A stretch of DNA of 35,763 nucleotides, taken from Methylobacter sp. (GTDB taxonomy: Bacteria; Pseudomonadota; Gammaproteobacteria; Methylococcales; Methylomonadaceae). The translations under genes were made by a program, and so were the position numbers. Location of the stretch: positions 1 through 35,763 of the forward strand of contig SCPZ01000013.1 in the NCBI GenBank assembly GCA_004299305.1, written 5' to 3'. Every line of letters begins with the position of its first letter. The stretch's first letter is position 1. Below the pieces are notes generated by a model. That model saw nothing but the letters and a program-made list of their open reading frames with translations, did not search any database and had not been told where the DNA came from. Of this stretch, positions 1,390 through 15,888 are shown one piece after another.

Positions 1390-2004
1390 GTGTTTGAAAT
1401 TATAAAAAGCGGCGGCTGGATGATGCTGCCAATCATACTGTGTTCCATTGGCGCTATGGGTATTATTGCGGAACGGTTTTGGTCCTTGCGTAGAAAGAGG
1501 ATTTTGCCGCCTGAACTGGTTGCACAAGTTTGGCGATTATCCCGCGAAAACAAGCTGGATGATGTCACTTTGCGGCACTTGAAAAACAGCTCGCCGCTCG
1601 GCTGCATTTTAGCCGCCGGTCTTGCCAATAGCCATCATGGCAGGAAATTCATGAAGGAATGTATTGAAGAAACCGGCCGCAGGGTCGTGCATGACCTGGA
1701 ACGCTTCCTCAATACCTTGGGCACTATCGCCGCAGTCAGCCCATTACTGGGTTTATTGGGCACCGTATTCGGCATGATTGATATTTTTTCCGCCCTGCTG
1801 CTGCATGGCGCCGGTAATCCCTCTGTTTTAGCCGGCGGCATTTCGGTCGCGCTGATTACTACGGCGGCAGGTTTGACGGTCGCTATTCCCAGCCTGATTT
1901 TTCATCGCTATTTTGAACGACTGGTCGATGAATATGTCGTTACCATGGAAGAGGAAGCGTTGAAATTAGTCGATATTTTGCACGAAGACCGGAAAGCGTC
2001 CTGA
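1390..2004 (+). CDS. exbB: ExbB/TolQ/MotA-family proton channel protein
   Basis: This 204-residue inner-membrane protein has hydrophobic segments at about residues 10-28, 108-138 and 150-172. The last two carry the family core (GTIAAVSPLLGLLGTVFGMI and then SVALITTAAGLTVAIP). Such proteins form the proton-driven motor with ExbD that energises outer-membrane receptors through TonB. The start is GTG at 1390; an overlapping ATG at 1388 is out of frame. It overlaps exbD by one base (TGATG), so translation is likely coupled. The exbB-exbD-lpxK order is common in gammaproteobacteria. The paralogue identity (ExbB rather than TolQ) is inferred from lpxK next door and the absence of tolA/tolB. Confidence 0.9.
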   Translation: MFEIIKSGGWMMLPIILCSIGAMGIIAERFWSLRRKRILPPELVAQVWRLSRENKLDDVTLRHLKNSSPLGCILAAGLANSHHGRKFMKECIEETGRRVVHDLERFLNTLGTIAAVSPLLGLLGTVFGMIDIFSALLLHGAGNPSVLAGGISVALITTAAGLTVAIPSLIFHRYFERLVDEYVVTMEEEALKLVDILHEDRKAS

Positions 2005-2435
2005 TGAAATTTCAACGCAAAAAAAGAGACAATGTCGATATTACCTTGATCTCAATGATCGATGTGCTATTTGTGCTGTTACTATTTTTCATGGTTTCTA
2101 CAACGTTTAACCAGCATACCGAAGTCAATATCAAACTTCCCGATGCGGAAGGAACAGAAGCCACCGAACATCCTAAAACGGTATCCTTGATAATTGATGC
2201 AGACGGCATTTACTCGCTGATCGGTGACGACGGCTTACCTCACCAATTAATCAATCAAAACCGGGAAGGCTTAAAACAGGAGCTGGGTAAACTCGCAGTA
2301 AGTTCTAAAGATATTCCTTTTGTCATCAATGCCGATGACAAAACGCCAAATAAAGCGGTCATGACAGCGTTGGATATTGCAGGGCTAGAAGGATTCAGTC
2401 ATATCACTTTTGCAACCCTGCATCCGGCCGACTAA
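2004..2435 (+). CDS. exbD: ExbD/TolR-family protein
   Basis: This 143-residue protein has a short basic cytoplasmic N-terminus, a single membrane helix at about residues 16-35 and a periplasmic domain. The helix includes the conserved proton-path aspartate (D20 in LISMIDVLFVLLLFFM). ExbD partners with ExbB to harness proton-motive force for TonB-dependent uptake. The start codon shares a base with the exbB stop, and lpxK starts three bases after its stop, indicating one transcription unit. No tonB gene is present in the window, so the TonB partner for the two receptors downstream must lie elsewhere. Confidence 0.92.
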   Translation: MKFQRKKRDNVDITLISMIDVLFVLLLFFMVSTTFNQHTEVNIKLPDAEGTEATEHPKTVSLIIDADGIYSLIGDDGLPHQLINQNREGLKQELGKLAVSSKDIPFVINADDKTPNKAVMTALDIAGLEGFSHITFATLHPAD

Positions 2436-2437
2436 GC

Positions 2438-3430
2438 ATGAAAAAAACCTTATCCCGATGGCTACTGGACATCTGGTACAAAGACCCGTTTATCGGCGTG
2501 TTCTTAATGCCGCTGGGTTTTTTATTCAGTGATTTCGTTAAATTCAGGAAATTTTTATACCGTATTGGCTTGTTAAAACAACACACTTTGCCGGTTCCTG
2601 TCATCGTGATAGGCAATATTACCGTCGGCGGCACCGGCAAAACGCCGTTGCTTATCTGGCTGGCCAAGTTGCTTAAAAGTGAGGGTTTTAAACCTGGCAT
2701 TATCAGCAGAGGTTACAAAGGACAAGCCGAAGCCTGGCCGCAATGGGTCGATGCGGACAGCACTGCCGAACAGGTCGGCGATGAAGCCGTGTTGATTGCC
2801 AAACAAACCGGCTGCCCTATGGCCGTAAGCCCGTTACGGGCCGATGCCGCTAAATTGGTGCTTGAAAAATCGGATTGCAATGTCATTTTGTCCGACGATG
2901 GCTTGCAACATTACGCGCTGAACCGGGATATTGAGATTGCCGTGATTGACGGCGAAAGGCGCTTCGGCAACAGCTACTGCCTACCGGCCGGCCCCTTGCG
3001 CGAACCGATAGAAAGGTTGCAAAGCGTCGATTTTATCGTCGTAAATGGAGAAAAATCGGAAGACAACGAGTTTTCGATGCAACTCAGCGGCAATATCGCG
3101 ATAAATATGCTTAGCGGGGAAGAAAAACCATTGCAGGAATTAACTGCAAGCAACTGTCATGCCCTGGCGGGCATAGGCAACCCCGAACGATTTTTTAAAC
3201 TGCTGGAGTCGGTCGGGTTGAGCTGCAAAACCCACAGCTTCCCGGATCATTATAAATTCCAATCCAGCGACATCTCATTCCCAAACGCCGACTTGGTATT
3301 AATGACCGAGAAGGACGCAGTAAAATGCATAACCTTTGCAGGCAATCAACATTGGTACGTCCCCGTAACAGCCGTTCCTGAAACAGGTTTTGCTGATAAA
3401 TTATTAGACTTGTTAAGTAAAAAACAGTAG
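2438..3430 (+). CDS. lpxK: Tetraacyldisaccharide 4'-kinase (lipid A biosynthesis)
   Basis: This 330-residue protein phosphorylates the 4' position of the tetraacyldisaccharide lipid A precursor at the inner membrane. It shows the P-loop GNITVGGTGKTP (residues 60-70, Walker A) and the LpxK-specific DDGLQHY motif (153-159), with a hydrophobic N-terminal segment at about 17-31 for membrane attachment. Its length matches the family. It follows exbD with only two intervening bases. No strong ribosome-binding site is visible, so coupling to exbD is likely. This marks the cell as a Gram-negative with lipid A. Confidence 0.97.
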   Translation: MKKTLSRWLLDIWYKDPFIGVFLMPLGFLFSDFVKFRKFLYRIGLLKQHTLPVPVIVIGNITVGGTGKTPLLIWLAKLLKSEGFKPGIISRGYKGQAEAWPQWVDADSTAEQVGDEAVLIAKQTGCPMAVSPLRADAAKLVLEKSDCNVILSDDGLQHYALNRDIEIAVIDGERRFGNSYCLPAGPLREPIERLQSVDFIVVNGEKSEDNEFSMQLSGNIAINMLSGEEKPLQELTASNCHALAGIGNPERFFKLLESVGLSCKTHSFPDHYKFQSSDISFPNADLVLMTEKDAVKCITFAGNQHWYVPVTAVPETGFADKLLDLLSKKQ

Positions 3431-3479: not shown

Positions 3480-3631
3480 GTAACTATTCAGCAGATAGAA
3501 AATGGAACACGGATTAGACTGATAAACGCGGATAAAACCAATGAATGGGCTGTCCATCGACTCGTTTAAATCCGTTTAATCCGTGTCATCCGTGTTCCAT
3601 TAATCATTTTTAGCATACGCTGAATAGTTAC
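3480..3631. repeat. MITE-like inverted repeat (family B)
   Basis: The element begins with GTAACTATTCAGC and ends with GCTGAATAGTTAC. Inside are AATGGAACACGGAT on the left and ATCCGTGTTCCATT on the right, so both halves are imperfect inverted copies of each other. A related element lies at 13673-13930, and the ATCCGTGTTCCATTA motif recurs at about 30464. No ORF of interest is inside. The rest of the 381-base gap between lpxK and the receptor gene (3632-3811) holds the presumed receptor promoter. Confidence 0.75.
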
Positions 3632-3724: not shown

Positions 3725-3753
3725 CGAAAAAAAATCAACAAACATTGTCCAGT
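3725..3753 (+). promoter_or_regulatory. Possible FecI-type (ECF) promoter for the receptor gene
   Basis: A CGAAAA hexamer (3725-3730) lies 17 bases before TCCAGT (3748-3753), and the context ATTGTCC resembles the -10 region of the E. coli fecA promoter as I recall it (GGAAAT, 17-base spacer, TCCTTT). The match is partial (four of six in the -35). It is suggested because the gene behind it encodes a FecA-type transducer and a fecI/fecR pair lies downstream. It is weakly supported without transcript mapping. Confidence 0.22.
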
Positions 3754-3811
3754 TTGGAAATGCTCAAACGTCTTTATGGAGTTACATTAAAACTCACTAA
3801 GGACTCCAAAA

Positions 3812-6133
3812 ATGAAACAACTTGCTTTGCCGTTAATCGCCAGTCTGTTCTATTGTCAGAACGCACTGGCCGAACAGGAACTGCGCGTCGACATCCCCTC
3901 TCAACCATTAGCAACCGCGCTGGAGCAGTTTGAACAACAAACCGGCGTACAAATTCTCTATGCCGCTGATGCATTGTCAGGAAAAACATCGACGCAACTT
4001 GCAGGGCAATATACGGCGAAACAGGCGTTAAAAATCCTGCTGGACAAATCGGAGCTTGCCTACCGGTTTACCGATGATCATACCGTTGCAGTTAAGCGCG
4101 TCGATCCGGCTCACGTCAATGACGTCGCCGAGGATAAAAAAAATACCGTTCATCAATTAGACACGATAGTGGTGACTGCCACCAAAACCGAACGCCCGAT
4201 CTCGGAAGTGCCGGCCACCACGGCGGTTATCGATGACGAACAGATCGCCAATATGTACAGCCGCGACAGCACCGATGTGCTGACGCGTGCGACCGGCGTC
4301 GATATTGCCCGTAGCGGCACGAGCGGTTTTTCGACGCTTAATATTCGCGGTACCGGCTCGCGTCGCTCCTCGGTTTTGGTCAATGGTCAATACGCGGAAT
4401 TCATCGACACCAACATCGCCAGCCGCAACACATTGCAGACTGTCGACTGGGACGACATCGAACGGGTCGAAGTCGTTCGCGGCGCGGGTTCGGCGCTGTA
4501 TGGCCCCAATGCAATGGGTGGCATGGTCAACGTCATTACCAAGGAAGCGCCCAAGGAAAAAAATGTAACGCGGCCATTCTTTGTATTCGATAGCTTACCC
4601 ACCTACGGCGGCGGCGCATCGACGGGCGGCACCGTGGATGACGTCAGTTACCAGCTCAATGTCAAACACCTGAGTTCGGACGGCTATAAAAGCATACCGA
4701 AACCCGCCTTATTTCCCGGTTCTACCGGAACAATATCACATTCTCTGCAAAACGGAGGCTGGGACAAAACCATGTTGGGCGGGCGTCTGGGCTATCGCTT
4801 ATCCGAACAATCGAAACTGAAGTTTGCATTCAATTATATGGATGAATCCGATCTGGCGTTCGACCGGGTTAATACCCCGCAAAACGGCCAATACGGCCAG
4901 TACAGCCTGGAATTCAAACACGATTTTTCCGACCGCTTCGATGTGACCGCCACGCTCAGCCATCGCAGCCATGTCGCTGACCTGACCTTTGACAATTACT
5001 TTTATCCGTTTACAACCACTAATATCATACCGAGCACAACCTTATTCGAGGATGCGCAAAAACTCACCGGAGAAGTCCGCGCCCGCTGGATGCCGGCGCA
5101 AGGACATACCCTGCTGTTTGGTTATAACGCCGCCCAGGATTGGACCAAGGTTCGTAACATTACCTCTTTGACCGGCATCGAAACAGATCATCGCAATGCG
5201 GAAATTCAAAATCACGGTTTGTATTTGCAATACGAACTGGAACTCTCGAAAAAACTGTTCGTATCGATGGGCGGTCGTTACGATTGGTTCGATTACGATG
5301 TCAATGCCAATATTGCCGCTTCCAATACCCAGCGGCTCAGTAAAACCAAGTTCGACACCTTTAATCCCCGAGGCGGCATCCGCTACAAGTTTAACGACGA
5401 TATTTCGGTTCACGGCAGTATCGGCACCGGTTTTCGCGCCCCCGAACCCAGCGCAGTGGTCGGCGGCACCAACAGCGCATTTGTTGAAGTACAGCCCAAT
5501 GCCGGTCTGAAACCGGAAACCTCGGACAGCTATGATCTGGGACTCGACTTTGACACCCCGTTCGGTCTACATGCCGGTGCGACCGGTTTTTTCAACGATA
5601 TTTCCGATTACATTCTGGCATCGAGAAACCTCGTGGCTAATAAAACAACCATCCAATCCCAAAACTTGGCCAAGGTGCATACCTACGGTGCGGAACTGGA
5701 GTTGACCCAGCAAATTACCAATCAGTTCAGCCTGTTCACCAATTACACCCACACTATCGCCCGAACCGCAGCGCCGTTGTTGGCCACTGCCAGCGGCTTG
5801 CCGCAAGAAGGCTATCAACTGCCCAATGTTCCCGAACATAAAGCGGCTTTCGGCCTACTGTTCGACTCCTCGCGTATCAGCGGTCGCCTGGAAGGGCGTT
5901 ATGCCAGTCGGCGGTTCATCAGTGGCGACGCCAGAAACCAAGCTGCTTATGCCTTATCGTCTTATGTCGTGGCCGACATCAATGCCACCTATCGGCATCC
6001 GATCGGCAATAAAAAGACGCTGGATTTTACCGCCGGTATTAACAACATCCTTGATCGGCAGTACGAATCTCGCAGTAACGGTTACTACAACGAGCCGCGG
6101 ATAGGCTTCATCAGGCTAGGACTTGAATTCTAA
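3812..6133 (+). CDS. TonB-dependent receptor/transducer with N-terminal STN domain
   Basis: This 773-residue outer-membrane receptor is of the FecA/FpvA signalling type. A signal peptide spans about residues 1-20 (cleavage after ALA). An STN signalling domain (about 22-95, LRVDIPSQPLATALEQF and following) contacts a FecR-type anti-sigma factor. A TonB box (DTIVVTA, about 117-123) precedes the plug (about 130-240, with LNIRGTGSRR and YGPNAMGGMVNVI) and a 22-strand barrel ending in aromatic F. AAGGA eight bases before ATG supports the start. The peptide and radical SAM genes follow on the same strand, so the ligand may be the modified peptide or its metal complex. The likely signalling partners are the sigma/anti-sigma genes at 13173-14990. 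Ligand identity is inferred, not seen. Confidence 0.93.
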   Translation: MKQLALPLIASLFYCQNALAEQELRVDIPSQPLATALEQFEQQTGVQILYAADALSGKTSTQLAGQYTAKQALKILLDKSELAYRFTDDHTVAVKRVDPAHVNDVAEDKKNTVHQLDTIVVTATKTERPISEVPATTAVIDDEQIANMYSRDSTDVLTRATGVDIARSGTSGFSTLNIRGTGSRRSSVLVNGQYAEFIDTNIASRNTLQTVDWDDIERVEVVRGAGSALYGPNAMGGMVNVITKEAPKEKNVTRPFFVFDSLPTYGGGASTGGTVDDVSYQLNVKHLSSDGYKSIPKPALFPGSTGTISHSLQNGGWDKTMLGGRLGYRLSEQSKLKFAFNYMDESDLAFDRVNTPQNGQYGQYSLEFKHDFSDRFDVTATLSHRSHVADLTFDNYFYPFTTTNIIPSTTLFEDAQKLTGEVRARWMPAQGHTLLFGYNAAQDWTKVRNITSLTGIETDHRNAEIQNHGLYLQYELELSKKLFVSMGGRYDWFDYDVNANIAASNTQRLSKTKFDTFNPRGGIRYKFNDDISVHGSIGTGFRAPEPSAVVGGTNSAFVEVQPNAGLKPETSDSYDLGLDFDTPFGLHAGATGFFNDISDYILASRNLVANKTTIQSQNLAKVHTYGAELELTQQITNQFSLFTNYTHTIARTAAPLLATASGLPQEGYQLPNVPEHKAAFGLLFDSSRISGRLEGRYASRRFISGDARNQAAYALSSYVVADINATYRHPIGNKKTLDFTAGINNILDRQYESRSNGYYNEPRIGFIRLGLEF

Positions 6134-6322
6134 AAACTGTTTGCGGCGCCGAGGCAACCCGGCGCTTCCGGTATCAGGACGGTATCGGCTTGTTTCCAAA
6201 CGCTTTGCCGTTTGGAAGTAACGGAGTGTCGGCCAACAAACCAACACTCCAGCGGACAGCATCAAAGAGGATTCTGTCCGTATTCCGCCCTTAAGGGCAT
6301 TATTAATAATGAGGTATTAACC
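6134..6322 (+). promoter_or_regulatory. Stem-loop-rich leader between receptor and precursor peptide
   Basis: This 189-base gap contains four separate dyads: GCGCCG/CGGCGC (6146-6165), TTCCAAACG/CGTTTGGAA with a 6-base loop (6194-6217), CGGACAG/CTGTCCG (6253-6280) and the 12-base palindrome GCCCTTAAGGGC (6287-6298). None is followed by a clear T-run. Possible roles are receptor-mRNA 3' protection, attenuation, or setting the peptide:receptor ratio. The dyads are read directly; the role is inference. Confidence 0.45.
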
Positions 6323-6430
6323 ATGTTAAATGAAATCAAAATCGACGATCTTAGTGTAGCTATCAAAAACAGCATCCATACCGCAATGTGCTGCCATGGA
6401 CCTATGTGCGATACGGATTGCGCACACTAA
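6323..6430 (+). CDS. Candidate RiPP precursor peptide, Cys/His-rich core
   Basis: This 35-codon gene has GAGG eight bases before ATG. The product has a charged/aliphatic leader (about residues 1-20, containing EIKIDDLSVAIKNSI) and a short C-terminal core AMCCHGPMCDTDCAH with four cysteines (C23, C24, C29, C33) and three histidines in the last 17 residues. It sits directly upstream of a radical SAM/SPASM enzyme and downstream of a TonB-dependent receptor, the layout expected for a ribosomally made, post-translationally modified peptide. Cys and Asp/Thr residues offer sites for thioether cross-links, and the Cys/His content suggests metal binding. The core is analogous in composition to, but not homologous with, methanobactin precursors. 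It is too short for most gene callers. Sequence and context are clear; chemistry and role are inferred. Confidence 0.8.
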   Translation: MLNEIKIDDLSVAIKNSIHTAMCCHGPMCDTDCAH

Positions 6431-6441
6431 CCTTGTCATTC

Positions 6442-6469
6442 GATCGGGAAACCTTCGGGTTTCCCGGTC
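6442..6469 (+). terminator. UUCG-loop hairpin between peptide and enzyme genes
   Basis: Arms CGGGAAACC and GGTTTCCCG close a TTCG tetraloop (6445-6466). Three further pairs extend the stem to 6442-6469, including one G-T. The sequence after it is CCTCTT, a weak U-tract. It begins 12 bases after the peptide stop and ends before the radical SAM ribosome-binding site (TTGGAG at 6479). A partial terminator or mRNA-stabilising hairpin here would give more peptide than enzyme, as is usual in RiPP operons. Confidence 0.7.
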
Positions 6470-6491
6470 CCTCTTACGTTGGAGTTTGTTA

Positions 6492-7880
6492 ATGGATAAA
6501 TTACTAAAAGAGTTTCATGTATTAGGCACACGAATCGGTCCGGTCGGTTTTCATGGCCCGTCTGCCAAGTTTTTCGAGTTGTCGCCCGACATTGCCGCAA
6601 CCGTGTTGTCGTTGGAAAAAGACGAACAATCCTGGTACGCGCTGCCGTCGATGGAACGCGAACGCATTGCGCTGGCTTTGCAGGCGGCGTTACCGGATGA
6701 GCTGGACTCAAGAACCAACCTGTTAGGAGAAAGTAACCGTTTGACCGGTTTTTATTTATTCGTCAGCCAGGAATGTAATCTGGCGTGCAGCTATTGTTAC
6801 GGCGACGGCGGCGAATATCGCAAAGGCAAAATGATTATGGACGAGCGCACTGCCGACAATTTTATCGACAAATTCATTACCGACAAGAATCCCGGCTACC
6901 TGATCAATTTTTTCGGCGGCGAGCCCTTGCTTAACCTGCCGCTAATCCAAAAAATCATTGATCGCGTTCGGGCCAAAACCGAACCGCTCGGCATCCGCAC
7001 GGTGTTTAACATGACCACTAACGGCACCGTCTGGAGCAGCAAGATTGCCGATTTTGTCGACAAAAATATCGATACCCTGACCGTCAGTCTCGACGGCCCC
7101 AAAGACATTAACGATGCGCAACGGCCCGCATGCGGCAATTTCTCGGCTTACGACAAGACTGTGCGCACTATCGGCGACCTCAAGGAACAAGGGTCGCGCT
7201 ACACCATACGCACCATCATGACCAAAAACAGCTTTGGCAGGTTAAAGGAAATTTACAGCCATAATTCCGAACTGGCCGGCAAAGGCGGCGTCGGCTTGAG
7301 TACCGTCGATGTCGGCGACGACCATGCGCTGGGCTTGACCGATCCTGAACACTGGGCGCTGGTCGATGAAATCGTCGAAATCAACTCGGAGAGTTTACGT
7401 TCGCTGGCGGACAGCGCCAACCCGCAATTCAACGAATACACCAGCGAGTTGTGCAAGTTGCTGTTCGGTCGGCAATACCGGCCGCGCCCCTGCAATGCCG
7501 GACAAACCGTGCTGGCGGTAGCCGCCGACGGCGAGCTGTATCCCTGCCACCGCTTCGTCGGCTATCAGGAATTTTGCGTCGGCAATGTCAACGATGAGCA
7601 ACCGCTAAACGCCAACTACACCGAGCTTTGCCGGTCGTTCAAGGAAACCTCGGTCGATAAAAATCCCTATTGCAGCGGCTGTTGGCTACAGCATCTGTGC
7701 GGCGGCAGCTGTTATGTCATTTCCCATTTGCGCGAAGGCGACGTGTTCAAGCCGCCCGCCCGCTATTGCCACCTGAAAAAAACGGTTTACGACCGTTTGT
7801 TAAGCGAATTTGCCGAAATCATGGCCGATCCGGCCAGAAAAGTCCGGTTTGTCGACAATGTGACCGGCTACTTCCACTAG
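6492..7880 (+). CDS. Radical SAM/SPASM peptide-modifying enzyme
   Basis: This 462-residue protein has the radical SAM cluster motif C95-x3-C99-x2-C102 (CNLACSYCYG) and the SAM-binding GGEPLL (142-147). It also has a full seven-cysteine SPASM domain: C334-x12-G-x4-C352, then C394-x2-C397-x5-C403-x3-C407, then C426, predicting two auxiliary Fe-S clusters. The first 80 residues lie outside the radical SAM core and may bind the leader peptide. Enzymes of this build install thioether, C-C or related cross-links on peptides. The general layout resembles the QhpD/sactisynthase group, but the exact reaction cannot be told. ATG 6492 is chosen because TTGGAG lies eight bases upstream; an extended reading from 6396 would run through the precursor gene. 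Its substrate is most likely the 35-residue peptide just upstream. Confidence 0.93.
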   Translation: MDKLLKEFHVLGTRIGPVGFHGPSAKFFELSPDIAATVLSLEKDEQSWYALPSMERERIALALQAALPDELDSRTNLLGESNRLTGFYLFVSQECNLACSYCYGDGGEYRKGKMIMDERTADNFIDKFITDKNPGYLINFFGGEPLLNLPLIQKIIDRVRAKTEPLGIRTVFNMTTNGTVWSSKIADFVDKNIDTLTVSLDGPKDINDAQRPACGNFSAYDKTVRTIGDLKEQGSRYTIRTIMTKNSFGRLKEIYSHNSELAGKGGVGLSTVDVGDDHALGLTDPEHWALVDEIVEINSESLRSLADSANPQFNEYTSELCKLLFGRQYRPRPCNAGQTVLAVAADGELYPCHRFVGYQEFCVGNVNDEQPLNANYTELCRSFKETSVDKNPYCSGCWLQHLCGGSCYVISHLREGDVFKPPARYCHLKKTVYDRLLSEFAEIMADPARKVRFVDNVTGYFH

Positions 7881-7894
7881 CAAGAGACTACATT

Positions 7895-9289
7895 ATGAAA
7901 AAAACGCTTTATTGGCTGTCGGCCATGCTGCTGGCAGTATTGACGCAAAACTGCTTTGCCGCCGCCTGCGGGCCGGTCTATGGCGCAGACAGTATCGCCG
8001 AGGATAAGGACGGCAATATCTGGGTCACCCATTATGAGGATGTCCGTTTGGGCCGCCTGGAGCCCAACAGCGGTCGTTTCGAGGAATATCTGCCCACTAC
8101 CCAGGCCAATTCGGCGGTATTGAACCGGAATGACAAAGACGGCTTCAGCTATAAATTCGATTTCGGTTTCAACGGCTTGGCGCTGGACGATAAACGCGGC
8201 CTGGTTTGGTCGCTGATCTTCAATTCCGATAAGGCGACACGTTTTTCCCGTAGCGACCGGCTGTTTACCGACATCGAGTTGCCGGGGCGCAGCTTCGGCC
8301 GTTTCGTCTTGCCTATCGACGGCGAAGGCAATCTGTGGATATTGGCCGGGCCGTGCTGCGGTCAGGAAGGCGCTATGCAGTTAGTAAAGATAAACCCGGA
8401 CGCCACAAAGCAGGTATTTCAACTGCAAGTGAAGCGCGCCATTGCACCCAGCGTGGCGTTTGCCAAGAACGGGCAAGGCTGGGTGTCGCTGACCCAGGAC
8501 GATGAAAAGCAGGCCGCGCTGTATGCCTTCCGTAACCAGCGTTTCGAGCGCATCGCCCTGCCCGCCGAAATAGGCCGAATCATCACCCGTTTGCATGTCG
8601 ATGCACAAGGCGATTTGTGGCTGGCAGAAGGCGACGCTATCTGGCGCTTGCACAATAAGGAATTCAAGCGCTATACGCCACCGACTCCCAGCGCTCATCC
8701 CTCGGTTTTAGCCGACGATGGCCGTGGCAATCTATGGTTTACCGAGTGGCGCGGCAATAAAATAGGCCGAATTTCCGCTACCGGCGAAATCAGCGAGTTC
8801 CCGATCCCGCCTGAAGAAGAGTCGCCATTGGCGCTGACCGTTGCGGCTGACGGTAAAGTTTGGTTCTCGGCAATGTTCAATTACGAGCTGTTCCGTCTCG
8901 ACCCGGCTACCGGCAATATCCAGAGCTTTCCGCTGCCGACGCCCGGCAACTGGTCGAAAAATGCCTCCGAAGGCCTAAGCGCCTGCGTAATTAAACCCAA
9001 GGATGCCTTAACCATGGCGGCGGCCAAAGCCTCCCCTGTTCTTACAAAAACCAAACCGGTACGCCACCCCAAGGGCTATCCTGACGAACCCGGCGCGGCG
9101 GCATTCGAGCAGAATTGCCACACAGCTTGCCACAGCTGGTATCGGGTGGATAAGGCGGCGGATCGGCGTAGCGATTGGCGTCCGACCGTGGAACGGATGA
9201 TAGATTTCAACAAGGCCGCTATCGCAAACGAACAACGCGAGCTGATTGTCGATTACCTGAACCGGAATTACACGATGGCTAAACATTGA
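7895..9289 (+). CDS. Periplasmic streptogramin-lyase-like propeller with C-terminal cytochrome c site
   Basis: This 464-residue exported protein has a signal peptide at about residues 1-23 (MKKTLYWLSAMLLAVLTQ, then CFA/AA). Seven Vgb-type blades can be counted, each with a D/G-x-G-N-x-W-type turn, for example DGNIWVTHY, EGNLWIL, RGNLWFTEW and DGKVWFSA. The C-terminal 60 residues form a small cytochrome-like domain with CHTACH (408-413), a CX3CH variant of the usual CXXCH, followed by WYRVD and a candidate axial Met435 in VERM. This tail resembles the haem domain of quinohaemoprotein amine dehydrogenase alpha subunits. A role in oxidising or processing the peptide or its metal in the periplasm is possible but unproven. 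It lies 14 bases after the radical SAM gene. Confidence 0.85.
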   Translation: MKKTLYWLSAMLLAVLTQNCFAAACGPVYGADSIAEDKDGNIWVTHYEDVRLGRLEPNSGRFEEYLPTTQANSAVLNRNDKDGFSYKFDFGFNGLALDDKRGLVWSLIFNSDKATRFSRSDRLFTDIELPGRSFGRFVLPIDGEGNLWILAGPCCGQEGAMQLVKINPDATKQVFQLQVKRAIAPSVAFAKNGQGWVSLTQDDEKQAALYAFRNQRFERIALPAEIGRIITRLHVDAQGDLWLAEGDAIWRLHNKEFKRYTPPTPSAHPSVLADDGRGNLWFTEWRGNKIGRISATGEISEFPIPPEEESPLALTVAADGKVWFSAMFNYELFRLDPATGNIQSFPLPTPGNWSKNASEGLSACVIKPKDALTMAAAKASPVLTKTKPVRHPKGYPDEPGAAAFEQNCHTACHSWYRVDKAADRRSDWRPTVERMIDFNKAAIANEQRELIVDYLNRNYTMAKH

Positions 9290-9325
9290 TGCTTAGGATT
9301 TGGCAAAAAATAACTTCCTCTTATG

Positions 9326-9462
9326 GTTCCCACACGGAGCTCTCATCTTTATGCACAAGTATCCAAGTAACTCGTCATACCCGCCGGGAAGCGGGTATCC
9401 CTGCCGGGATGACGGTGTCCTGTAGGCACTTGTGTATAAAGACGAGCGCGGAGCATGGGAAC
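9326..9462. repeat. Family A hairpin element inside the RiPP cluster
   Basis: Imperfect arms begin GTTCCCACACGGAGC and end GAGCATGGGAAC, each including a TCTTTATGCACAAGT-type segment or its complement. A GTCATxCCxGC / GCCGGGATGAC palindrome lies in the centre. It occupies most of the 200-base gap between the propeller gene and the second receptor and could act as an mRNA 3'-end structure. It is related to 15902-16038 and to the window-end repeats. Confidence 0.75.
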
Positions 9463-9489
9463 GATAAGTTCAAGTTTCGGGAAGTTATT

Positions 9490-11373
9490 GTGGCCCAAAT
9501 CCTTAGACGCATGTTCCGGGCTTGCCTGCTGCTATGTTGCTTGGGCACAGCCTTGGCCGACAACAGCCGCGAAATCATCAGCGCCGCAGAGATCGAGCGG
9601 GAAAAACCGGCCAGCCTGATGGAGTTATTACGCAAACGCGGCGGCCTCGGCGACAGCTCCGGGGCGCTGAGTTTACGCGGCGTACCCAAGGTGGCGCTGT
9701 ATATCGACGGCTTTTCACGCGGCGGCGCAGTAACCGAACTGGAAAAAATCAAACCGCAGGATGTCGCGAGCATCGAAATTATCCGCGGCGCCGCCTCCAA
9801 CCGCTACGGCGCCGACGCCTTGGGCGGGGCGATCATCATTACCACGCTGCAAGCCAAGTCGCAATGGGAGCTGGGACTGGTGCAAGGCTACGATAGCCTG
9901 GACAGCCACTACAGCCGGGCCATTGGTTCAGGCGCTATCGGCGGCATCGATGTTCGGGCCAGCTTCGAAGACAGTCTCAGCAACTTGTGGATGGTTCAGC
10001 GTAACGACAGTCCGCTGCTGTCGATGGCGCAAACCCAGCATAGCGGGTTCGCCAAGCGCGGCGGCGACATCAAGGCCAGCTATCGCAACGATTGGCTGGC
10101 CGCCGGAGCGGAACTCAACTATCTGGAACAAGGCCGCAATTACGGCCGTCCCAATAATTACAACGAATACACCACGGTGCGGCCGAAGCTGTTCTCGGAA
10201 ATGCGCTTTAGCGAACTGAAACTGAACGGCAAGCTGATGTATGAAGACAACCGTACCGATGTGTTTCGCGACGTCGGCGGCACACGAAATTTGGCGCTGT
10301 ATATGCAAGGCCCCGAAACCGAAAACACCGTCAATCTGGAAGTGCAGGCCGATTACCGCAGCTTTAACGCCGGACTGGTCTACGCACTTACTCAGGCCGG
10401 TATAGAACAACGCTTGGCAAGCAACGGCCAACGCTTGTTCACGATGGACAGCACGGTGAACCGGATCGGCCTGTTCGGCGGCTACGGGCTGGATTTTTGG
10501 CAGGATTGGCGTCTGGATGCCAGCGGTCGCTACGACCAATACGATTATTCCGGCATCTCGATTTACGATGCGGGTTTGGACAGCCGCGAGCCGGATGCCG
10601 CCAAGAAAGCCTTCAATCCCAAGCTGGCGTTATCCTGGAAAACCTTGTCCTGGCTGACCTTGCGCAGTTCGGCAGCCACCGGCTTCATGCCGCCCGATCC
10701 GGCCACGCTGTATTTCCGGCAGACACGGCCTAATTACGTAGTGCTGCCCAACCCCACGTTGAAACCAGAGCAATCGACCACCTTGGATTTTGGCAGCGAG
10801 GTCAGCTGGCAGGGCGGCAAGGCGGAATTGACCTGGTTCTACACCCGCTGGACCGACAAGATGGAAAGCCTGGTGACGTCCGGTGCGCCGAATATCAAGC
10901 AGACCGTCAATCTCGGCGCATCGGAATCGAAAGGTCTGGAATTGAGCGTCAATCAAAGCCTGTTGGACGCTTTGAATCTGGCGCTTAATTACACCTTGAC
11001 TACGACTAAAATCACCGAGAGCCTCAACAGCGCGATTATCGGCAACGAACTGGCGTTCCAACCGCGCCACCGCTTCAACGCGGCGCTGACTTACACCGGT
11101 ATTCCCGGCCTGACGACCCGGCTTAACCTGCACCATGAATCGGAGCAATATATGGATTTTCGCAACCTGAGCCGCGACGCTGGCGGCCATGCCTGGCTTA
11201 ACAAGGCTTACACCATGCTGGATTTTTTGATCACTAAAAAAATCGGCATCGACAAGCACAGTATTAACCTGACCCTGGCGGTCAACAACCTGCTCGATAA
11301 CCGTTTTGAAAAAAACCTGTTCCAAAGCGATCCGGGTCGTATCGTGCGTGGCGAAATAGGAGTCAATTTTTGA
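9490..11373 (+). CDS. TonB-dependent outer-membrane receptor without signalling domain
   Basis: With the GTG start at 9490 (GGAAG six bases upstream) the protein is 627 residues. The signal peptide is MAQILRRMFRACLLLCCLGT followed by ALA. The plug spans about residues 28-122 (SLRGVPKVALYIDG, IEIIRGAASNRYGADALGGA), and a barrel ends in GVNF. An ATG at 9511 is the alternative start but has no ribosome-binding site. Unlike the receptor at 3812, there is no STN domain, so this one should transport but not signal. It overlaps the ABC ATPase gene by four bases, tying uptake and export to one transcript. It could re-import the matured peptide or its metal complex; the substrate is inferred from context. 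Confidence 0.9.
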   Translation: MAQILRRMFRACLLLCCLGTALADNSREIISAAEIEREKPASLMELLRKRGGLGDSSGALSLRGVPKVALYIDGFSRGGAVTELEKIKPQDVASIEIIRGAASNRYGADALGGAIIITTLQAKSQWELGLVQGYDSLDSHYSRAIGSGAIGGIDVRASFEDSLSNLWMVQRNDSPLLSMAQTQHSGFAKRGGDIKASYRNDWLAAGAELNYLEQGRNYGRPNNYNEYTTVRPKLFSEMRFSELKLNGKLMYEDNRTDVFRDVGGTRNLALYMQGPETENTVNLEVQADYRSFNAGLVYALTQAGIEQRLASNGQRLFTMDSTVNRIGLFGGYGLDFWQDWRLDASGRYDQYDYSGISIYDAGLDSREPDAAKKAFNPKLALSWKTLSWLTLRSSAATGFMPPDPATLYFRQTRPNYVVLPNPTLKPEQSTTLDFGSEVSWQGGKAELTWFYTRWTDKMESLVTSGAPNIKQTVNLGASESKGLELSVNQSLLDALNLALNYTLTTTKITESLNSAIIGNELAFQPRHRFNAALTYTGIPGLTTRLNLHHESEQYMDFRNLSRDAGGHAWLNKAYTMLDFLITKKIGIDKHSINLTLAVNNLLDNRFEKNLFQSDPGRIVRGEIGVNF

Positions 11374-12128
11374 ACACGACAACGAGCATCCATCGCCGCT
11401 GGGACATCGATGCCGAGGGTATAAGCAAGCGTTATCCCAACGGTCATCTCGCCCTCGACGGCATCAACCTGCAAGTAACCAAAGGCGAAGTGCTGGGACT
11501 GCTGGGCCAAAACGGCGCAGGCAAAACCACCTTGCTGAAAATACTCTGCGGACTGCTGCAACCCAGTCGGGGACGCTTGACGATGCTGGGCATAGACAGC
11601 CGTAATAAAGCCCATGAAATCAAACGGCATTTGGGCGTCGTTTCCCAGGACATTAATCTCGACCAGCCGTTAACGGTACGTAAAAACCTGGAGCGCCATT
11701 GCAGCTATTTTTCCGTTCCGCGTCGCGAAGCCAAGCGGCGTATTGACGAATGGCTGGCTTTGCTCCAGCTTGAACAAGCCGCGCAGCAAACGATTCATCA
11801 ATTATCCGGCGGCAACAAACGCAAGGTGATGATCGCGCGCGCCTTTATCACCGAGCCTCAATTATTGATTCTTGATGAGCCGACCAACGCGCTAGACCCG
11901 TCGGTTCGAGCCGTGGTTTGGGACAGGATTAGGGCTTTTTCGCAGACCGGCGGCACGACGCTGTTGTCCACCCATCATTTCCAGGAAGCCGAGCAATTGT
12001 GCAATCGCGTCGAATTGATCCACCAAGGCCGACTGCTGAAGTTGGACGGCGAGGAATCGTTGGAAAGCCTTTTCCATGCACTGACGGCCGAGCCTTCGCC
12101 ATTGACGGACTGCGAGGCTGAGCGATGA
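11370..12128 (+). CDS. ABC transporter ATP-binding protein (ABC-2/DrrA/NodI type)
   Basis: This 252-residue ATPase has intact motifs: Walker A GQNGAGKT (46-53), Q-loop Q93, signature LSGGN (145-149), Walker B LLILDE (165-170) and H-loop H202. The start is TTG at 11370, overlapping the receptor stop (TTGA), with AGGAG seven bases upstream. It overlaps the permease gene by four bases (ATGA). The pair would form an exporter of the ABC-2 class. In this setting the natural cargo is the modified peptide or an intermediate. There is no C39 peptidase domain, so leader removal must be done by another protein, none of which is visible nearby. Confidence 0.93.
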   Translation: MNTTTSIHRRWDIDAEGISKRYPNGHLALDGINLQVTKGEVLGLLGQNGAGKTTLLKILCGLLQPSRGRLTMLGIDSRNKAHEIKRHLGVVSQDINLDQPLTVRKNLERHCSYFSVPRREAKRRIDEWLALLQLEQAAQQTIHQLSGGNKRKVMIARAFITEPQLLILDEPTNALDPSVRAVVWDRIRAFSQTGGTTLLSTHHFQEAEQLCNRVELIHQGRLLKLDGEESLESLFHALTAEPSPLTDCEAER

Positions 12129-12877
12129 GCGGGTTTTGGGCGTTTGTCGGCCGCGCCTTGGGCGAATCTTTAGACAACTGGCGTTCTGCGCTGTTTCGGA
12201 TGTTATTCCAGCCTCTGGTTTACCTGCTCGTTTTCGGCAAGATTCTGGGCCGGGCACTACCGGATAGCGGTTATTCGCTGGTTGTCGCACCCGGCATCGT
12301 CTCGATGCTGGTGATGAGCGCGGCGCTGAGCAATATCGGCGGAATATTGACCCGAGGTTATTATTTTCGCAGCATGGAAAGCTGGCTGCTGACGCCGTTG
12401 ACGCTTAGGAGCCTGATGCTGGCCTGGATTACCGGCACAGCATTAATCGCAACCGCCGCCGGCTTGATCGGAAACCTGCTGGTTTACGGCTTATTGGGCT
12501 ATGTGCCGTTATCCTTGCCTGCCGACCTGATTTGCCTGATCTACGGCGCGACGGTTTTTTCACTGCTCGGCTGCATCGGTTACACCTTGCCGCAGACGCC
12601 CGCCAAAGCCCAGGACTTCATCGCTTTTTTACTGATGCCGATGATGTTTCTCGGCTGCACTTTCTTTAGTTACGCGATGCTGCCCGAGCCTTGGAACCTC
12701 GTGGCCTTGCTGATGCCGACCACCTACCTTAGCGAGGCCCTGCGCATCGTTTACGGCAGCCATTCGTCCAGCCTTGATCCGGCACTTATCGCCGTCGGCG
12801 GGATTTGCGCGCTATTGCTGTTATTCGCCATTGCCGACTGGTCGTTTAGGCGCAGGTTTCGCAATTTCCTCTGGTAA
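12125..12877 (+). CDS. ABC-2 type transporter permease
   Basis: This 250-residue inner-membrane protein has about six hydrophobic segments and the ABC-2 family signature region FIAFLLMPMMFLGCTFFS followed by MPTTYLSEALRIVYG. This layout is typical of NodJ/DrrB-type permeases. It is translationally coupled to the ATPase upstream. It closes the run of genes beginning with the receptor at 9490. No clear terminator follows. The 295-base gap downstream contains a small imperfect palindrome and the presumed promoter of the ECF sigma gene. Confidence 0.92.
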   Translation: MSGFWAFVGRALGESLDNWRSALFRMLFQPLVYLLVFGKILGRALPDSGYSLVVAPGIVSMLVMSAALSNIGGILTRGYYFRSMESWLLTPLTLRSLMLAWITGTALIATAAGLIGNLLVYGLLGYVPLSLPADLICLIYGATVFSLLGCIGYTLPQTPAKAQDFIAFLLMPMMFLGCTFFSYAMLPEPWNLVALLMPTTYLSEALRIVYGSHSSSLDPALIAVGGICALLLLFAIADWSFRRRFRNFLW

Positions 12878-12964
12878 TGATAAAAAATCACTTAGCCATT
12901 AAAGGGTTCGTTTAGAATTTTTTATGCTTAAATCATCCTATTGAAAAATATAGTGTTCTGCCAA

Positions 12965-12995
12965 GACCTTCCAGATTTTAAAAACCTGGAATGTC
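12965..12995. repeat. Imperfect palindrome after the exporter genes
   Basis: GAC-TTCCAG-TTTT pairs with AAAA-CTGGAA-GTC around a single-base centre, with two internal mismatches. It may end the exporter transcript on either strand, or be another small REP-like element. No T-run follows on the plus strand. Confidence 0.45.
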
Positions 12996-13116
12996 TAAAT
13001 ACGGTCGGGGTCTGAAAGATACCTAAAAATAAGTCATATCCCCTACTTTATGTTTTTTCACGCAGTAAACTGTTTAGATAAATAATTAAGTTATTGAAAT
13101 TTAGTTAATGTAATGT

Positions 13117-13132
13117 TGGCCCGCATCCTGCT
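13117..13132 (+). promoter_or_regulatory. Putative sigma-54 promoter upstream of ECF sigma gene
   Basis: TGGCCCGCATCCTGCT matches the sigma-54 consensus TGGCACGN4TTGCW in all but two informative positions and keeps the invariant GG and GC at the correct spacing. It lies about 40 bases before the ATG of the ECF sigma gene. An activator gene of the NtrC type is not present in the window, which weakens the call. Confidence 0.4.
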
Positions 13133-13172
13133 TGTCTAGCTTAAATAATATGCCGACAAAGGACGCCCGATT

Positions 13173-13676
13173 ATGACCGAAAAAATATCCCGCAACATTT
13201 TGCAGGTTTGGTTTCAACATTATTCATCCGATCTGCTGATATTTTTTTGTCGAAAGGTTGGCGAACCGGACGCCGATGACCTGGTTCAGGAAGTGTATTT
13301 ACGGGCCTTGACCTATCCGCTGTCATCGACCATTCTCAAGCCTCGCGCCTTTTTATTCAGGATAGCCACCAATCTGGTCGTTGACCATGTCCGCAAACAG
13401 AGTTACCGCCAACACGATAATTATGAAGAGATTGAATGCAGGACGATTACCAATATGCTGGGACCGGAAGATAGCGTATGCGGGGCTGAGCGCTTGAAAA
13501 AATTTCGCGATGCCCTGGCGCAGTTACCGGCAGACCACCGGCAGGCATTCCTGCTGAATCGTTTCGACGGCCTGTCGCATGTGGAAATCGCCCAATTCAT
13601 GGGAATTTCCGACAAAACAGTGCAGCGTTATATTGCTAAAGCTTTCGATCATTGCCTGAGCTGTCTTGAGTTTTAG
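13173..13676 (+). CDS. ECF RNA polymerase sigma factor, FecI-like
   Basis: This 167-residue protein has a sigma-70 region 2 (about residues 8-80, with DADDLVQEVYLRAL and a PRAFLFRIATNLVVDHVRK helix) and a region 4 helix-turn-helix (about 115-163, LPADHRQAFLLNRFDGLSHV...ISDKTVQRYIAKA). This build is typical of FecI-type sigma factors controlled by cell-surface signalling. The ATG has GGA eight to ten bases upstream. The likely partners are the FecR protein at 14031 and the STN receptor at 3812. Target promoters are probably those of the receptor/peptide genes. The gene is separated from fecR by 354 bases of repeats, which is unusual. Confidence 0.93.
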   Translation: MTEKISRNILQVWFQHYSSDLLIFFCRKVGEPDADDLVQEVYLRALTYPLSSTILKPRAFLFRIATNLVVDHVRKQSYRQHDNYEEIECRTITNMLGPEDSVCGAERLKKFRDALAQLPADHRQAFLLNRFDGLSHVEIAQFMGISDKTVQRYIAKAFDHCLSCLEF

Positions 13677-13930
13677 TAACTACGGATAGGACGGATTTAA
13701 ACGGATAAGGAACGGGCAATCGCCTAAGTTGAACAGCTTGTGTCGTATATTTGTAGCCGGAGTGCAAGCTTCGCCTAAAGCGCCTACTGTTGGTGCTTGT
13801 GCTGGCAGGCGAAGCTTGCACTCCTGCTATTGGCGCCTTGTCCGCCATTCCTAACCAAGTTTTTAAATCAGTGTTTATCCGTTTAATCTGTGTCATCCGT
13901 GTTCCATTTCTCTATGTGCTGAATAGTCTC
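13673..13930. repeat. Family B element nested with a family C hairpin, between sigma and anti-sigma genes
   Basis: The outer part begins GTAACTACGGATAGGACGG and ends with ATCCGTGTTCCATTTCTC, then TGCTGAATAG, matching the element at 3480-3631. Inserted in its middle (13759-13824) is a hairpin with perfect 18-base arms, GGAGTGCAAGCTTCGCCT and its complement. This hairpin recurs at 21000-21063. The nested arrangement suggests successive insertions. The remaining bases up to 14030 hold no gene. Confidence 0.75.
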
Positions 13931-14030
13931 AACCGTTGTTTATTAAAAAGTGTCTGGGAACCGCGATATAAGGTTTTTAAACGGCTCTTCGCAAGTATAA
14001 TGTTGGCTTATCGAATAATAATAACTATTT

Positions 14031-14990
14031 ATGATAGAACAACCGCAGTCCACCACCATCCGTCAGCAGGCCATCGACTGGTTGGTACGCAAACAGTCCG
14101 GTGCTTTCGCCGTTGCCGAGCGGCAAAGATTTGAACAGTGGCTCGCCGCCGATCCTTTACACCGCCGTATCTATGAACAAGTCGAGCGCGTCTGGCTAGG
14201 TTTGCCTTGCCCGCAAGCCGAATTATCCGCCGCCCGTAAAAAAACCAGCCGGTTACGGTTGTTGCCCAAAAGCCTGGTCTTGGCTAGCGCGGCCAGCCTG
14301 TTATTCGCCGTCGGTCTCGGCATCAGGGAAGGCTGGCCTTTAGTCGATGGCCGCGTGTTGCAGACTGCAAAAGGCGAATTGCGGCAAATAACCCTAAGCG
14401 ATGGCTCGCTGGTTGATCTTAACTCGGACACCGAGCTCGCTGTCCATTATGGTTGGCTTGGCCGGTCGCTGGAGCTGGTGCGCGGCGAAGCCTTGTTCAG
14501 TGTGGCGCCCGCTAAACTGCGTCCGTTTGAAGTATCGGCCGGAGGCGGCAAGCTTCGCGACATCGGCACCCGTTTCAATGTCGCAATCGGCCCTTCGGCA
14601 AACCGGATTTCGGTACTGGAAGGCGCGATTGTTCTTAATTTACCGGCGACAGGCGAGCAACGCCAAACCAAATCAGGTCAGATGATGACCTATAATGCCG
14701 TGACCGTCCTTTCAGAACCTGTAGCCGCCGATGTCAAAACCTTTGCCGTTTGGCGGAATCGCAAACTAATTTTCCGCAATACACCATTGTCGGAAGTGGT
14801 CAGGGAGCTGGAGCGTTATCATCCCGTGCATGTCCGTCTTATCGACCCTTCCCTTGGCGGTTTGACCCTTGGCGGGGTTTTCGATAATAACGATCTTGAT
14901 CGTTTTCTCACCACCTTGGAAGCGGTTTTGCCGGTTGACATCAAGCGCGACAAAAACGGCGACGTAATGATTAAGCGCCGCAGATCCTGA
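14031..14990 (+). CDS. FecR-family anti-sigma factor/signal transducer
   Basis: This 319-residue protein has a cytoplasmic DUF4880 domain (about residues 10-50, AIDWLVRKQSGAFAVAERQR), one membrane helix (about 81-98, SLVLASAASLLFAVGLGI), a periplasmic FecR domain (about 112-205, TAKGELRQITLSDGSLVDLNS) and a C-terminal DUF4974-like segment (about 250-316). Such proteins hold the sigma factor inactive until an STN domain of a loaded outer-membrane receptor contacts the periplasmic part. The ATG has no convincing ribosome-binding site. The pairing with the sigma gene upstream is by position and family. The receptor partner is inferred to be 3812-6133, the only STN receptor in the window. Confidence 0.93.
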   Translation: MIEQPQSTTIRQQAIDWLVRKQSGAFAVAERQRFEQWLAADPLHRRIYEQVERVWLGLPCPQAELSAARKKTSRLRLLPKSLVLASAASLLFAVGLGIREGWPLVDGRVLQTAKGELRQITLSDGSLVDLNSDTELAVHYGWLGRSLELVRGEALFSVAPAKLRPFEVSAGGGKLRDIGTRFNVAIGPSANRISVLEGAIVLNLPATGEQRQTKSGQMMTYNAVTVLSEPVAADVKTFAVWRNRKLIFRNTPLSEVVRELERYHPVHVRLIDPSLGGLTLGGVFDNNDLDRFLTTLEAVLPVDIKRDKNGDVMIKRRRS

Positions 14991-15132: not shown

Positions 15133-15888
15133 ATGACTTATTGTATTGCAGCGTCTATAGATGAAGGACTTATTCTGGTTTCCGACTCAAGAACCAATGC
15201 CGGTATTGATAACGTCAGCACTTACGGCAAAATGCATGCATTTAAAACCAGCGATGACCGCAAAATTGTCTTGCTGTGCGCTGGTAATCTTGCTACCACT
15301 CAAGCCGTTTTGGAGCAGCTGCACCGCGATAAAATCAAGAATGCCGGCGTCAATCTCAATAATGTGGAATGCTTATCCGAGGCGGCCGCCTATCTGGGCC
15401 ATGTCAGCGTCGAAAAACAAAAACAACATATCTCAGCCGAAGGGCAATCGGCATTTAATCCCTCGGCCAGTTTTATTTTAGCCGGTCAAATCGGCGACGA
15501 GCCGCATGGCGCTTATATGGTTTATGCAGAAGGCAACAGCATAACCAGTTCGGCCAATACGCCTTTTTTGCAAATTGGCGAGAGTAAATACGGCAAGCCA
15601 ATATTGGATCGTTTTCTTAAGTTAGGCACATCGATAGACGAAGCGGCGCGCTGCTGCCTGGTGTCGATGGACTCGACCATCCGTAGTAACGCCAGTGTCG
15701 GACCGCCTGTAGAAATGCTGATTTACCGTAAAAATAGTTTCAGCTTCGACGAGTATTATTGTTTCGACGGCGATGACGATTATTTGCTGCAACTTCGTCG
15801 CAGTTGGGAAGCCAAGCTTCGTGAAGCGATAGGCGCATTGCCCAGCCTCAATAAAGAAGCGGTTAAGGTCATGCGGGTTGATTTGTAG
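15133..15888 (+). CDS. Anbu-type proteasome-like peptidase
   Basis: This 251-residue protein is of the Ntn-hydrolase fold. Removal of Met1 would expose Thr2 (MTYCIAASIDEGLILVSDSR), the expected nucleophile. The DSRTNAG and LLCAGNLATTQ segments are typical of the bacterial Anbu (ancestral beta subunit) family, related to HslV and 20S proteasome subunits. Anbu genes usually sit with a circularly permuted ATP-grasp, alpha-E and transglutaminase genes. Those partners are here too, but about 11 kb away on the other strand (26919-30400 and 32188-35586). Substrate and role in the cell are not established. No strong ribosome-binding site is visible before the ATG. Confidence 0.88.
   Translation: MTYCIAASIDEGLILVSDSRTNAGIDNVSTYGKMHAFKTSDDRKIVLLCAGNLATTQAVLEQLHRDKIKNAGVNLNNVECLSEAAAYLGHVSVEKQKQHISAEGQSAFNPSASFILAGQIGDEPHGAYMVYAEGNSITSSANTPFLQIGESKYGKPILDRFLKLGTSIDEAARCCLVSMDSTIRSNASVGPPVEMLIYRKNSFSFDEYYCFDGDDDYLLQLRRSWEAKLREAIGALPSLNKEAVKVMRVDL

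Follow-up and report, generated by a model that had tools for sequence, protein, structure and literature searches.

What is a short cysteine-rich peptide gene doing between a signalling receptor and a radical S-adenosylmethionine (SAM) enzyme, in the company of an exporter and a FecI/FecR-like regulatory pair? The question is raised by a gene cluster at positions 3812-14990 of a 35,763-nucleotide stretch of Methylobacter sp. DNA (assembly GCA_004299305.1, contig SCPZ01000013.1; genome G000, contig C26 of our set), referred to here as the window. The genome belongs to the order Methylococcales, and among named relatives Methylobacter tundripaludum SV96 (G019) is the nearest. With a probability of about 0.6, the cluster is a dedicated locus for a ribosomally synthesised and post-translationally modified peptide (RiPP), whose thioether-forming product leaves the cell and is taken back up under FecIR feedback, most likely as a metallophore. 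An earlier sequence-only reading had listed a gene set that includes two TonB-dependent receptors (TBDT1 and TBDT2), an ATP-binding cassette (ABC) exporter, an extracytoplasmic function (ECF) sigma factor and FecR. All members lie on the + strand where that reading placed them; the gene scans covered up to 27.9 kb of the window. The genes, together with a stem-loop and a short open reading frame (ORF), are as follows.

3812..6133, + strand: TBDT1, a TonB-dependent receptor with an STN signalling domain (Pfam STN, Plug, TonB_dep_Rec)
6323..6430, + strand: 35-residue precursor peptide ORF; a homologous ORF holds this position in each of the six producers of the order
6442..6469, + strand: stem-loop with a 12-bp stem between the peptide and radical SAM genes, predicted by folding
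6492..7880, + strand: radical SAM/SPASM peptide maturase with a domain like the RiPP recognition element (RRE) at its N-terminus
7895..9289, + strand: exported Vgb-type beta-propeller with a C-terminal cytochrome c domain and one CxxCH motif (Vgb-cytochrome)
9511..11373, + strand: TBDT2, a second TonB-dependent receptor without an STN match (Pfam Plug, TonB_dep_Rec; aligned in the 7 order loci)
11370..12128, + strand: ABC-2 type exporter, ATPase subunit (Pfam ABC_tran; NCBIfam DrrA-like, 227 of 312 bits, below cut-off)
12125..12877, + strand: ABC-2 type exporter, permease subunit (Pfam ABC2_membrane)
13173..13676, + strand: ECF (FecI-like) sigma factor (Pfam Sigma70_r2/r4_2; superfamily TIGR02937 above cut-off, NCBIfam FecI families below their own cut-offs)
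14031..14990, + strand: FecR-type sigma regulator (Pfam DUF4880, FecR, FecR_C)

The start of TBDT2 is probably near 9511 rather than at 9286, where its ORF opens with TTG. The radical SAM gene is taken to start at 6492 and not with the longer ORF at 6396, because its homologues align from 6492.

The combination is rare and recurs as a unit. A profile search at E <= 1e-100 finds the radical SAM enzyme in 6 of 311 genomes of the order: the window genome, SV96, G048, G090, G113 (locus L011) and M. marinus A45 (G147, locus L010), which are called producers below. An earlier search with the single protein (101 relatives, E <= 1e-30) had found four genomes. The Vgb-cytochrome profile matches 7 of the 311, namely the same six and one more genome, G123. 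In a class sample of 369 genomes (E <= 1e-45), the three matches are the genome itself, G786 and G903. These last two make up family f174, outside the order of the window; the family and order of G786 contain only these two genomes, and both match. Phylum samples yield the own genome only (1/398 in each, thresholds 1e-80 and 1e-40), and no plasmid-borne relative was found with the radical SAM enzyme at 1e-40 or the Vgb-cytochrome at 1e-30. A scan with two strict peptide patterns gave three loci (SV96, M. marinus A45 and a metagenome-assembled genome titled Methyloversatilis universalis), a count that says little because of the strictness of the patterns. The last of these appears to be G113, which is placed in the window's own order, so its public name looks wrong.

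Seven radical SAM loci are readable, six in the order and L039 in G786, with a radical SAM identity of 35%; the eighth, in G903, is truncated by a contig end. The contig of G903 starts at the first of three radical SAM genes, so the ORF upstream of it is unreadable there. To compare the gene sets, 20 window proteins were searched by tblastn in the neighbourhoods of the other loci. Every role recurs in 7/7 readable loci, in at least three gene orders. Gene content and order in SV96 and G048 are those of the window, while in G090 and G113 the sigma and FecR genes come first and the ABC genes lie ahead of TBDT2. Adding G123 to the producers gives the 7 order loci, in which TBDT1 aligns with 52-91% identity to the window, and adding L039 gives the eight loci mentioned below. 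The STN receptor, FecR and ECF sigma factor are found by Pfam in the window and have tblastn homologues in the 7 other loci. In L039, identities to the window are 27% for TBDT1, 38, 33 and 33% for the radical SAM enzymes, 53 and 43% for the ABC pair, 32% for TBDT2 and 25% for the Vgb-cytochrome, which has a CLACH haem motif; the sigma-FecR pair is divergent (36 and 37%). The TBDT1 alignment of L039 begins at residue 18 and thus spans the STN region. Its three tandem radical SAM genes (L039 6466-10347) lie behind one Cys-rich peptide, which suggests a more heavily modified relative in family f174.

The peptide itself is conserved in place and in form. The 35-codon ORF of the window encodes MLNEIKIDDLSVAIKNSIHTAMCCHGPMCDTDCAH, has GAGG eight bases ahead of its ATG, and matches no NCBIfam, Pfam or PHROGs family. 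The sequence-only reading held that homologous loci without a conserved small Cys-rich ORF next to the radical SAM gene would speak against a RiPP pathway; a short ORF lies between TBDT1 and the radical SAM gene in 7/7 readable loci, always with an STN receptor and FecIR. The type I peptides of the window, SV96 and G048 end in AMCC(H/T)GPMCD(T/V)DC(A/T)H, and the type II peptides of G090, G113 and M. marinus end in (A/S)MCSNPGPMCPPG(Q/E)(V/I)H; MC-x2-3-GPMC-x5-H-stop is common to the six. Between the window and SV96 the ORF has 4 silent and 0 replacement changes, and it is identical in G090 and G113. At the equivalent place L039 encodes a different Cys-rich type, MELSEMKIVEIEFEPLEGFEDEFHEMTACACCGTQGGMKCGCGPRF. 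Cys-richness by itself was dropped as evidence after a chance control, in which 4 of the 158 ORFs of the window that start with ATG and encode 25-60 residues, the precursor included, had at least four cysteines in the final 22 residues; position and conservation therefore carry the case. In 6/6 loci a stem of 10-12 bp folds at the equivalent place, its sequence differing among them (z from -2.1 to -4.0 relative to mononucleotide shuffles), and the stem-loop at 6442..6469 is probably a partial terminator or a transcript-stabilising element. The stretch between the receptor and peptide genes (6134-6322) is strongly conserved against SV96 and may hold hairpins; Rfam gives 0 matches in the window at gathering score.

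The class of the enzyme can be read from its sequence. The window protein matches Pfam SPASM, and Cys95/99/102 (CxxxCxxC) and Cys 334, 352, 394, 397, 403, 407 and 426 are invariant in six sequences. It lies in the PapB/SCIFF neighbourhood without reaching any equivalog (PapB NF047865, 216.5 of 340 bits; SCIFF TIGR03974, 178.5 of 425 bits; both below cut-off). Among the matches listed, the best structural match of the enzyme model is CteB, described in its Protein Data Bank (PDB) title as a thioether maturase. The aligned range begins at residue 1 of CteB, whose N-terminus we take to be an RRE. A short precursor ORF is thus adjoined by an enzyme with an RRE-like leader-binding region, as in a RiPP locus, and thioether chemistry at the Cys core is probable. 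The likeness to ranthipeptide/SCIFF maturases such as PapB and CteB extends to the RRE-like domain, the radical SAM domain, the SPASM cysteines and the Cys-containing short substrate next door. In contrast, the window enzyme falls below the equivalog cut-offs, its peptide belongs to no family, and the pair is set within a TonB/FecIR locus.

The known system with the closest logic is methanobactin, for which secretion, re-import of the copper-loaded form and FecIRA-like feedback have been proposed (PMC3621798). Group I methanobactin operons (MbnA, MbnB, MbnC, MbnT, MbnI, MbnR, MbnM) share with the window a short Cys peptide, an exporter, a TonB receptor with an N-terminal extension, an ECF sigma factor, a FecR-domain protein and, in some operons, a c-type cytochrome (MbnH/MbnP in some). 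On the other hand, the window locus lacks MbnB and has a radical SAM/SPASM enzyme in its place; it has an ABC-2 exporter instead of a MATE exporter, a propeller-cytochrome instead of the MbnP/MbnH pair, and two TonB receptors. The sequence-only reading had proposed methanobactin-like roles without MbnB, and this was borne out: MbnB (TIGR04159, cut-off 325 bits) exceeds its cut-off in 0/9 genomes (8/9 match weakly, none above 74.5 bits), which rules out membership of the methanobactin family. The weak match of the window genome is on another contig (C131). Every cluster gene except the peptide has an assignment other than MbnC, which was not searched genome-wide. M. marinus has an MbnB-like match of 56 bits at C1:1472429-1473019, roughly 8 kb past the cluster's sigma gene.

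The gene content, the conserved peptide, the enzyme class, the shared promoter-like elements and the uptake genes found without production genes in one genome are matters of sequence; from there we infer export, metal binding, re-import, the pairing of sigma factor and promoter, the direction of feedback and the role of the cytochrome along the following route. The radical SAM/SPASM enzyme would bind the leader through its RRE-like domain and install probable thioether bridges in the short Cys core, and the ABC-2 pair would carry the product into the periplasm. Once outside the cell, the peptide would most likely bind a scarce metal; a metal is proposed because of the Cys, Met and His of the peptide and the class of the receptors. 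The loaded peptide would be recognised by TBDT1, whose STN domain may signal via FecR to the ECF sigma factor, and this factor would read the promoter of its own operon. TBDT2 may be the main or an alternative importer. In the periplasm, the Vgb-cytochrome would receive the peptide after import, and it may free the metal by redox chemistry. Moreover, sigma-54 may form a second layer that sets transcription of the ECF sigma gene.

The regulatory part of this route draws on three elements, of which the first and third follow the consensus letters of FecI-type and sigma-54 promoters that are general background.

3746..3774, + strand: candidate ECF (FecI-type) promoter TGTCCA-N17-CGTCTT upstream of TBDT1
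13029..13046, + strand: degenerate inverted repeat ATAAGTCATATCCCCTAC ahead of the sigma-54-like element; weak candidate for an activator site
13116..13133, + strand: sigma-54-like -24/-12 element TTGGCCCGCATCCTGCTT ahead of the ECF sigma gene (window expectation 0.18)

TGTCCA-N17-CGTC lies upstream of TBDT1 in five producers of the order, with N16 spacing in M. marinus, and TGTCCA-N16/17-CGTC has one match in the window against 0.09 expected. Across 7 genomes and both strands, the exact TGTCCA-N16/17-CGTCTT occurs at nine sites, five of them at this operon; the pattern read backwards gives five, so the remaining four are at background. In the window genome the operon site is the only exact one. 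The element at 3746..3774 is a candidate for reading by the cluster's own ECF sigma factor. GG-N10-GC stands 52-57 bases upstream of the sigma start in 7/7 order loci, against a background of about 0.01 per 60 bases of strand for a fuller form of the pattern, and L039 has the sigma-54-like TGGCACCGGCCTTGCA 94-95 bases upstream; since the eight loci are related, these are not eight independent events. At the place equivalent to the inverted repeat, a perfect 18-bp palindrome, ATAGGTGATATCACCTAT, is found in M. marinus only, and the repeat pattern with one mismatch also occurs at 2610 and 20742 of the window. The STN receptor, FecR, ECF sigma factor and candidate target promoter ahead of the receptor gene resemble FecIRA-type surface signalling. 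The window operon differs in that it also encodes the presumed ligand and in that its ECF gene has a sigma-54-like element. The exporter, the two TonB receptors, FecIR and the 7/7 co-occurrence support the proposal of the sequence-only reading that a radical SAM RiPP locus is tied here to cell-surface signalling.

G123 contains TBDT1, Vgb-cytochrome, TBDT2, sigma and FecR genes on one contig, with TBDT1 and the Vgb-cytochrome about 20 bases apart. It is not among the six radical SAM genomes, and no peptide, radical SAM or ABC match was found in 12,000 of the 24,974 bases of the contig, the exporter not having been sought genome-wide. By the rule used for the window, 0/49 of its short ORFs are Cys-rich. 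In three gene trees rooted with L039 as the outgroup, G123 groups with G090 in that of the Vgb-cytochrome (support 87), next to G090 and M. marinus in that of TBDT1 (73) and with M. marinus in that of TBDT2 (89). Most simply, G123 would have lost its production genes, a reading that has moderate support. Its locus is an argument for re-use of the product by others.

A different argument comes from M. marinus. Its radical SAM enzyme is 81% identical to that of G090 and 58% to that of the window; the values are 71 and 54% for TBDT1, 63 and 55% for TBDT2, 46 and 58% for the ABC ATPase, and 53 and 58% for the Vgb-cytochrome. Its sigma and FecR proteins show 56 and 51% identity to G090 but 84 and 81% to the window. 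The peptide, radical SAM enzyme and both receptors are nearer type II while sigma and FecR are nearer type I, so the receptors travel with the peptide, which argues for a ligand-receptor pair. The locus contains every role, and its ABC permease gene is split by a 448-residue ORF that looks like a transposase. In addition, remnants of another ABC pair sit next to its Methylobacter-type sigma gene; these and the split permease (L010 5023-7206 and 15692-18027) suggest that a cassette was replaced and that the exporter of this strain is broken.

A ligand that travels with its receptors could also be a message. The alternative that survives best, unlikely as it is, makes the modified peptide a pheromone-like signal, with export, TBDT1 binding and FecIR feedback serving autoinduction and TBDT2 and the Vgb-cytochrome taking up or clearing the signal. 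The matching of two peptide types with two receptor types in M. marinus, the FecIR genes, the patchy distribution (6/311 in the order) and the apparent uptake-only locus of G123 all suit such a signal. However, two TonB receptors and a redox protein exceed what a pure signal would require, and import driven by TonB is typical of nutrients. Moreover, the core of all six peptides of the order keeps M, C, G, P, M, C and the final H fixed, and three of these kinds of residue are common metal ligands.

A different use of the peptide is suggested by the gene next door. The window peptide could become a redox cofactor or small modified subunit of the Vgb-cytochrome, in the way that QhpD and QhpC serve quinohemoprotein amine dehydrogenase (QHNDH). 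The two genes are adjacent, the radical SAM enzyme matches TIGR03906 at 190.3 bits, and the C-terminal domain of the Vgb-cytochrome weakly resembles the QHNDH alpha cytochrome. The score is nevertheless far under the cut-off of 453 bits, G123 has a Vgb-cytochrome without a radical SAM match (E <= 1e-100) or a peptide, and such a scheme would leave FecIR and two TonB receptors without a role, which makes it improbable. Streptogramin B (virginiamycin) lyase Vgb is a further known system for comparison; the window protein differs from it by a signal peptide and the fused cytochrome c domain. A lyase function was rejected: residue 313, which aligns with His270 of Staphylococcus aureus Vgb, is Leu or Met in 7/7 order sequences by a hand count, subject to the blade register of this repeat protein, and the H270A variant of Vgb is labelled catalytically inactive in a PDB title.

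Some Cys-rich peptides made by radical SAM enzymes are antimicrobial. The product might be a modified peptide of this kind, with the uptake receptors as self-protection or targets, and such known peptides and the DrrA/NodI-like exporter ATPase, below cut-off, point that way. Here too there is little likelihood: no gene of the cluster is assigned as an immunity protein, the STN receptor and FecIR fit import and sensing of the product, and the core is conserved within each type. Least credible is a chance insertion of a separate peptide/radical SAM/ABC cassette beside uptake genes (TBDT1, Vgb-cytochrome, TBDT2, FecIR) for an unrelated environmental ligand, for which the uptake genes standing alone in the compared stretch of G123 could be cited, but the combination recurs in a distant family (L039), receptors and peptide type co-vary in M. 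marinus, and G123 falls among producers in the three rooted trees.

Several points weigh against the metallophore reading or parts of it. The type II peptide has only two cysteines, which weakens a strict role in supplying copper to particulate methane monooxygenase (pMMO). The window genome has a PmoA match, while none was found in G786, G903 or G123, so a pMMO-copper role is not general; the absence is soft in G903, which is 87% complete, and in the fragmented G123. The assigned cluster genes include no peptidase for leader removal. The predicted structures are of moderate confidence (mean predicted local distance difference test scores of 75 and 70). The case of G123 is a single genome in 450 contigs, with 12 of 25 kb of the contig compared, and its partners differ among the three gene trees. 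As for the promoters, the exact ECF pattern misses SV96 (CGTCGT) and G123 (TGTCCG-N17-CGTC, a loose pattern with 1.17 expected per locus), and L039 has a divergent site, GGTCAG-N17-CGTC. A relaxed ECF pattern finds 17 sites in the eight loci, eight before TBDT1 and nine elsewhere, and a fuller sigma-54 pattern finds 51, eight of them before the sigma gene.

More tentatively, the product may be the first ribosomal metallophore made by a radical SAM enzyme: gammaproteobacterial methanotrophs would have in it a chalkophore, or a carrier of another metal, whose chemistry is unrelated to that of methanobactin. One relative would apparently take it up without making it, and control would pass from sigma-54 through the ECF sigma factor to a single operon. 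If this is true, methanobactin-like logic arose with two unrelated chemistries. For other gammaproteobacterial methanotrophs the locus offers a candidate carrier that is not Mbn, and G123 may be a scavenger. No description of the locus was found in titles and abstract openings, and supplement tables or preprints could still list the cluster. A genus-wide study of Methylobacter from 2025 counts nearly eight biosynthetic gene clusters (BGCs) per genome, and its main text does not contain 'RiPP', 'methanobactin', 'TonB' or 'radical' (PMC12810054, main text). A study of methanotroph BGCs from the same year mentions RiPP-like clusters, and the text available does not contain 'ranthipeptide' or 'radical' (PMC11964084).

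Immediately upstream of the cluster (1390-3430) are an ExbB-like gene, an ExbD-like gene and then lpxK; they were rejected as members, having no match in the compared stretches of other loci; since they are also unmatched in the compared stretch of SV96, the insertion site appears to differ. A proteasome-subunit-like protein (PF00227, below cut-off) is encoded just after FecR at 15133-15888 and was set aside, again with no match in the compared stretches. A SbmA/BacA-like ABC transporter, of a class that can import peptides, lies about 10 kb downstream (25043-26734) and has no match in the compared stretches elsewhere. Upstream of the operon, at 3486-3606, an imperfect inverted repeat of the ATCCGTGTTCCA type resembles, by eye, a small repeat element.

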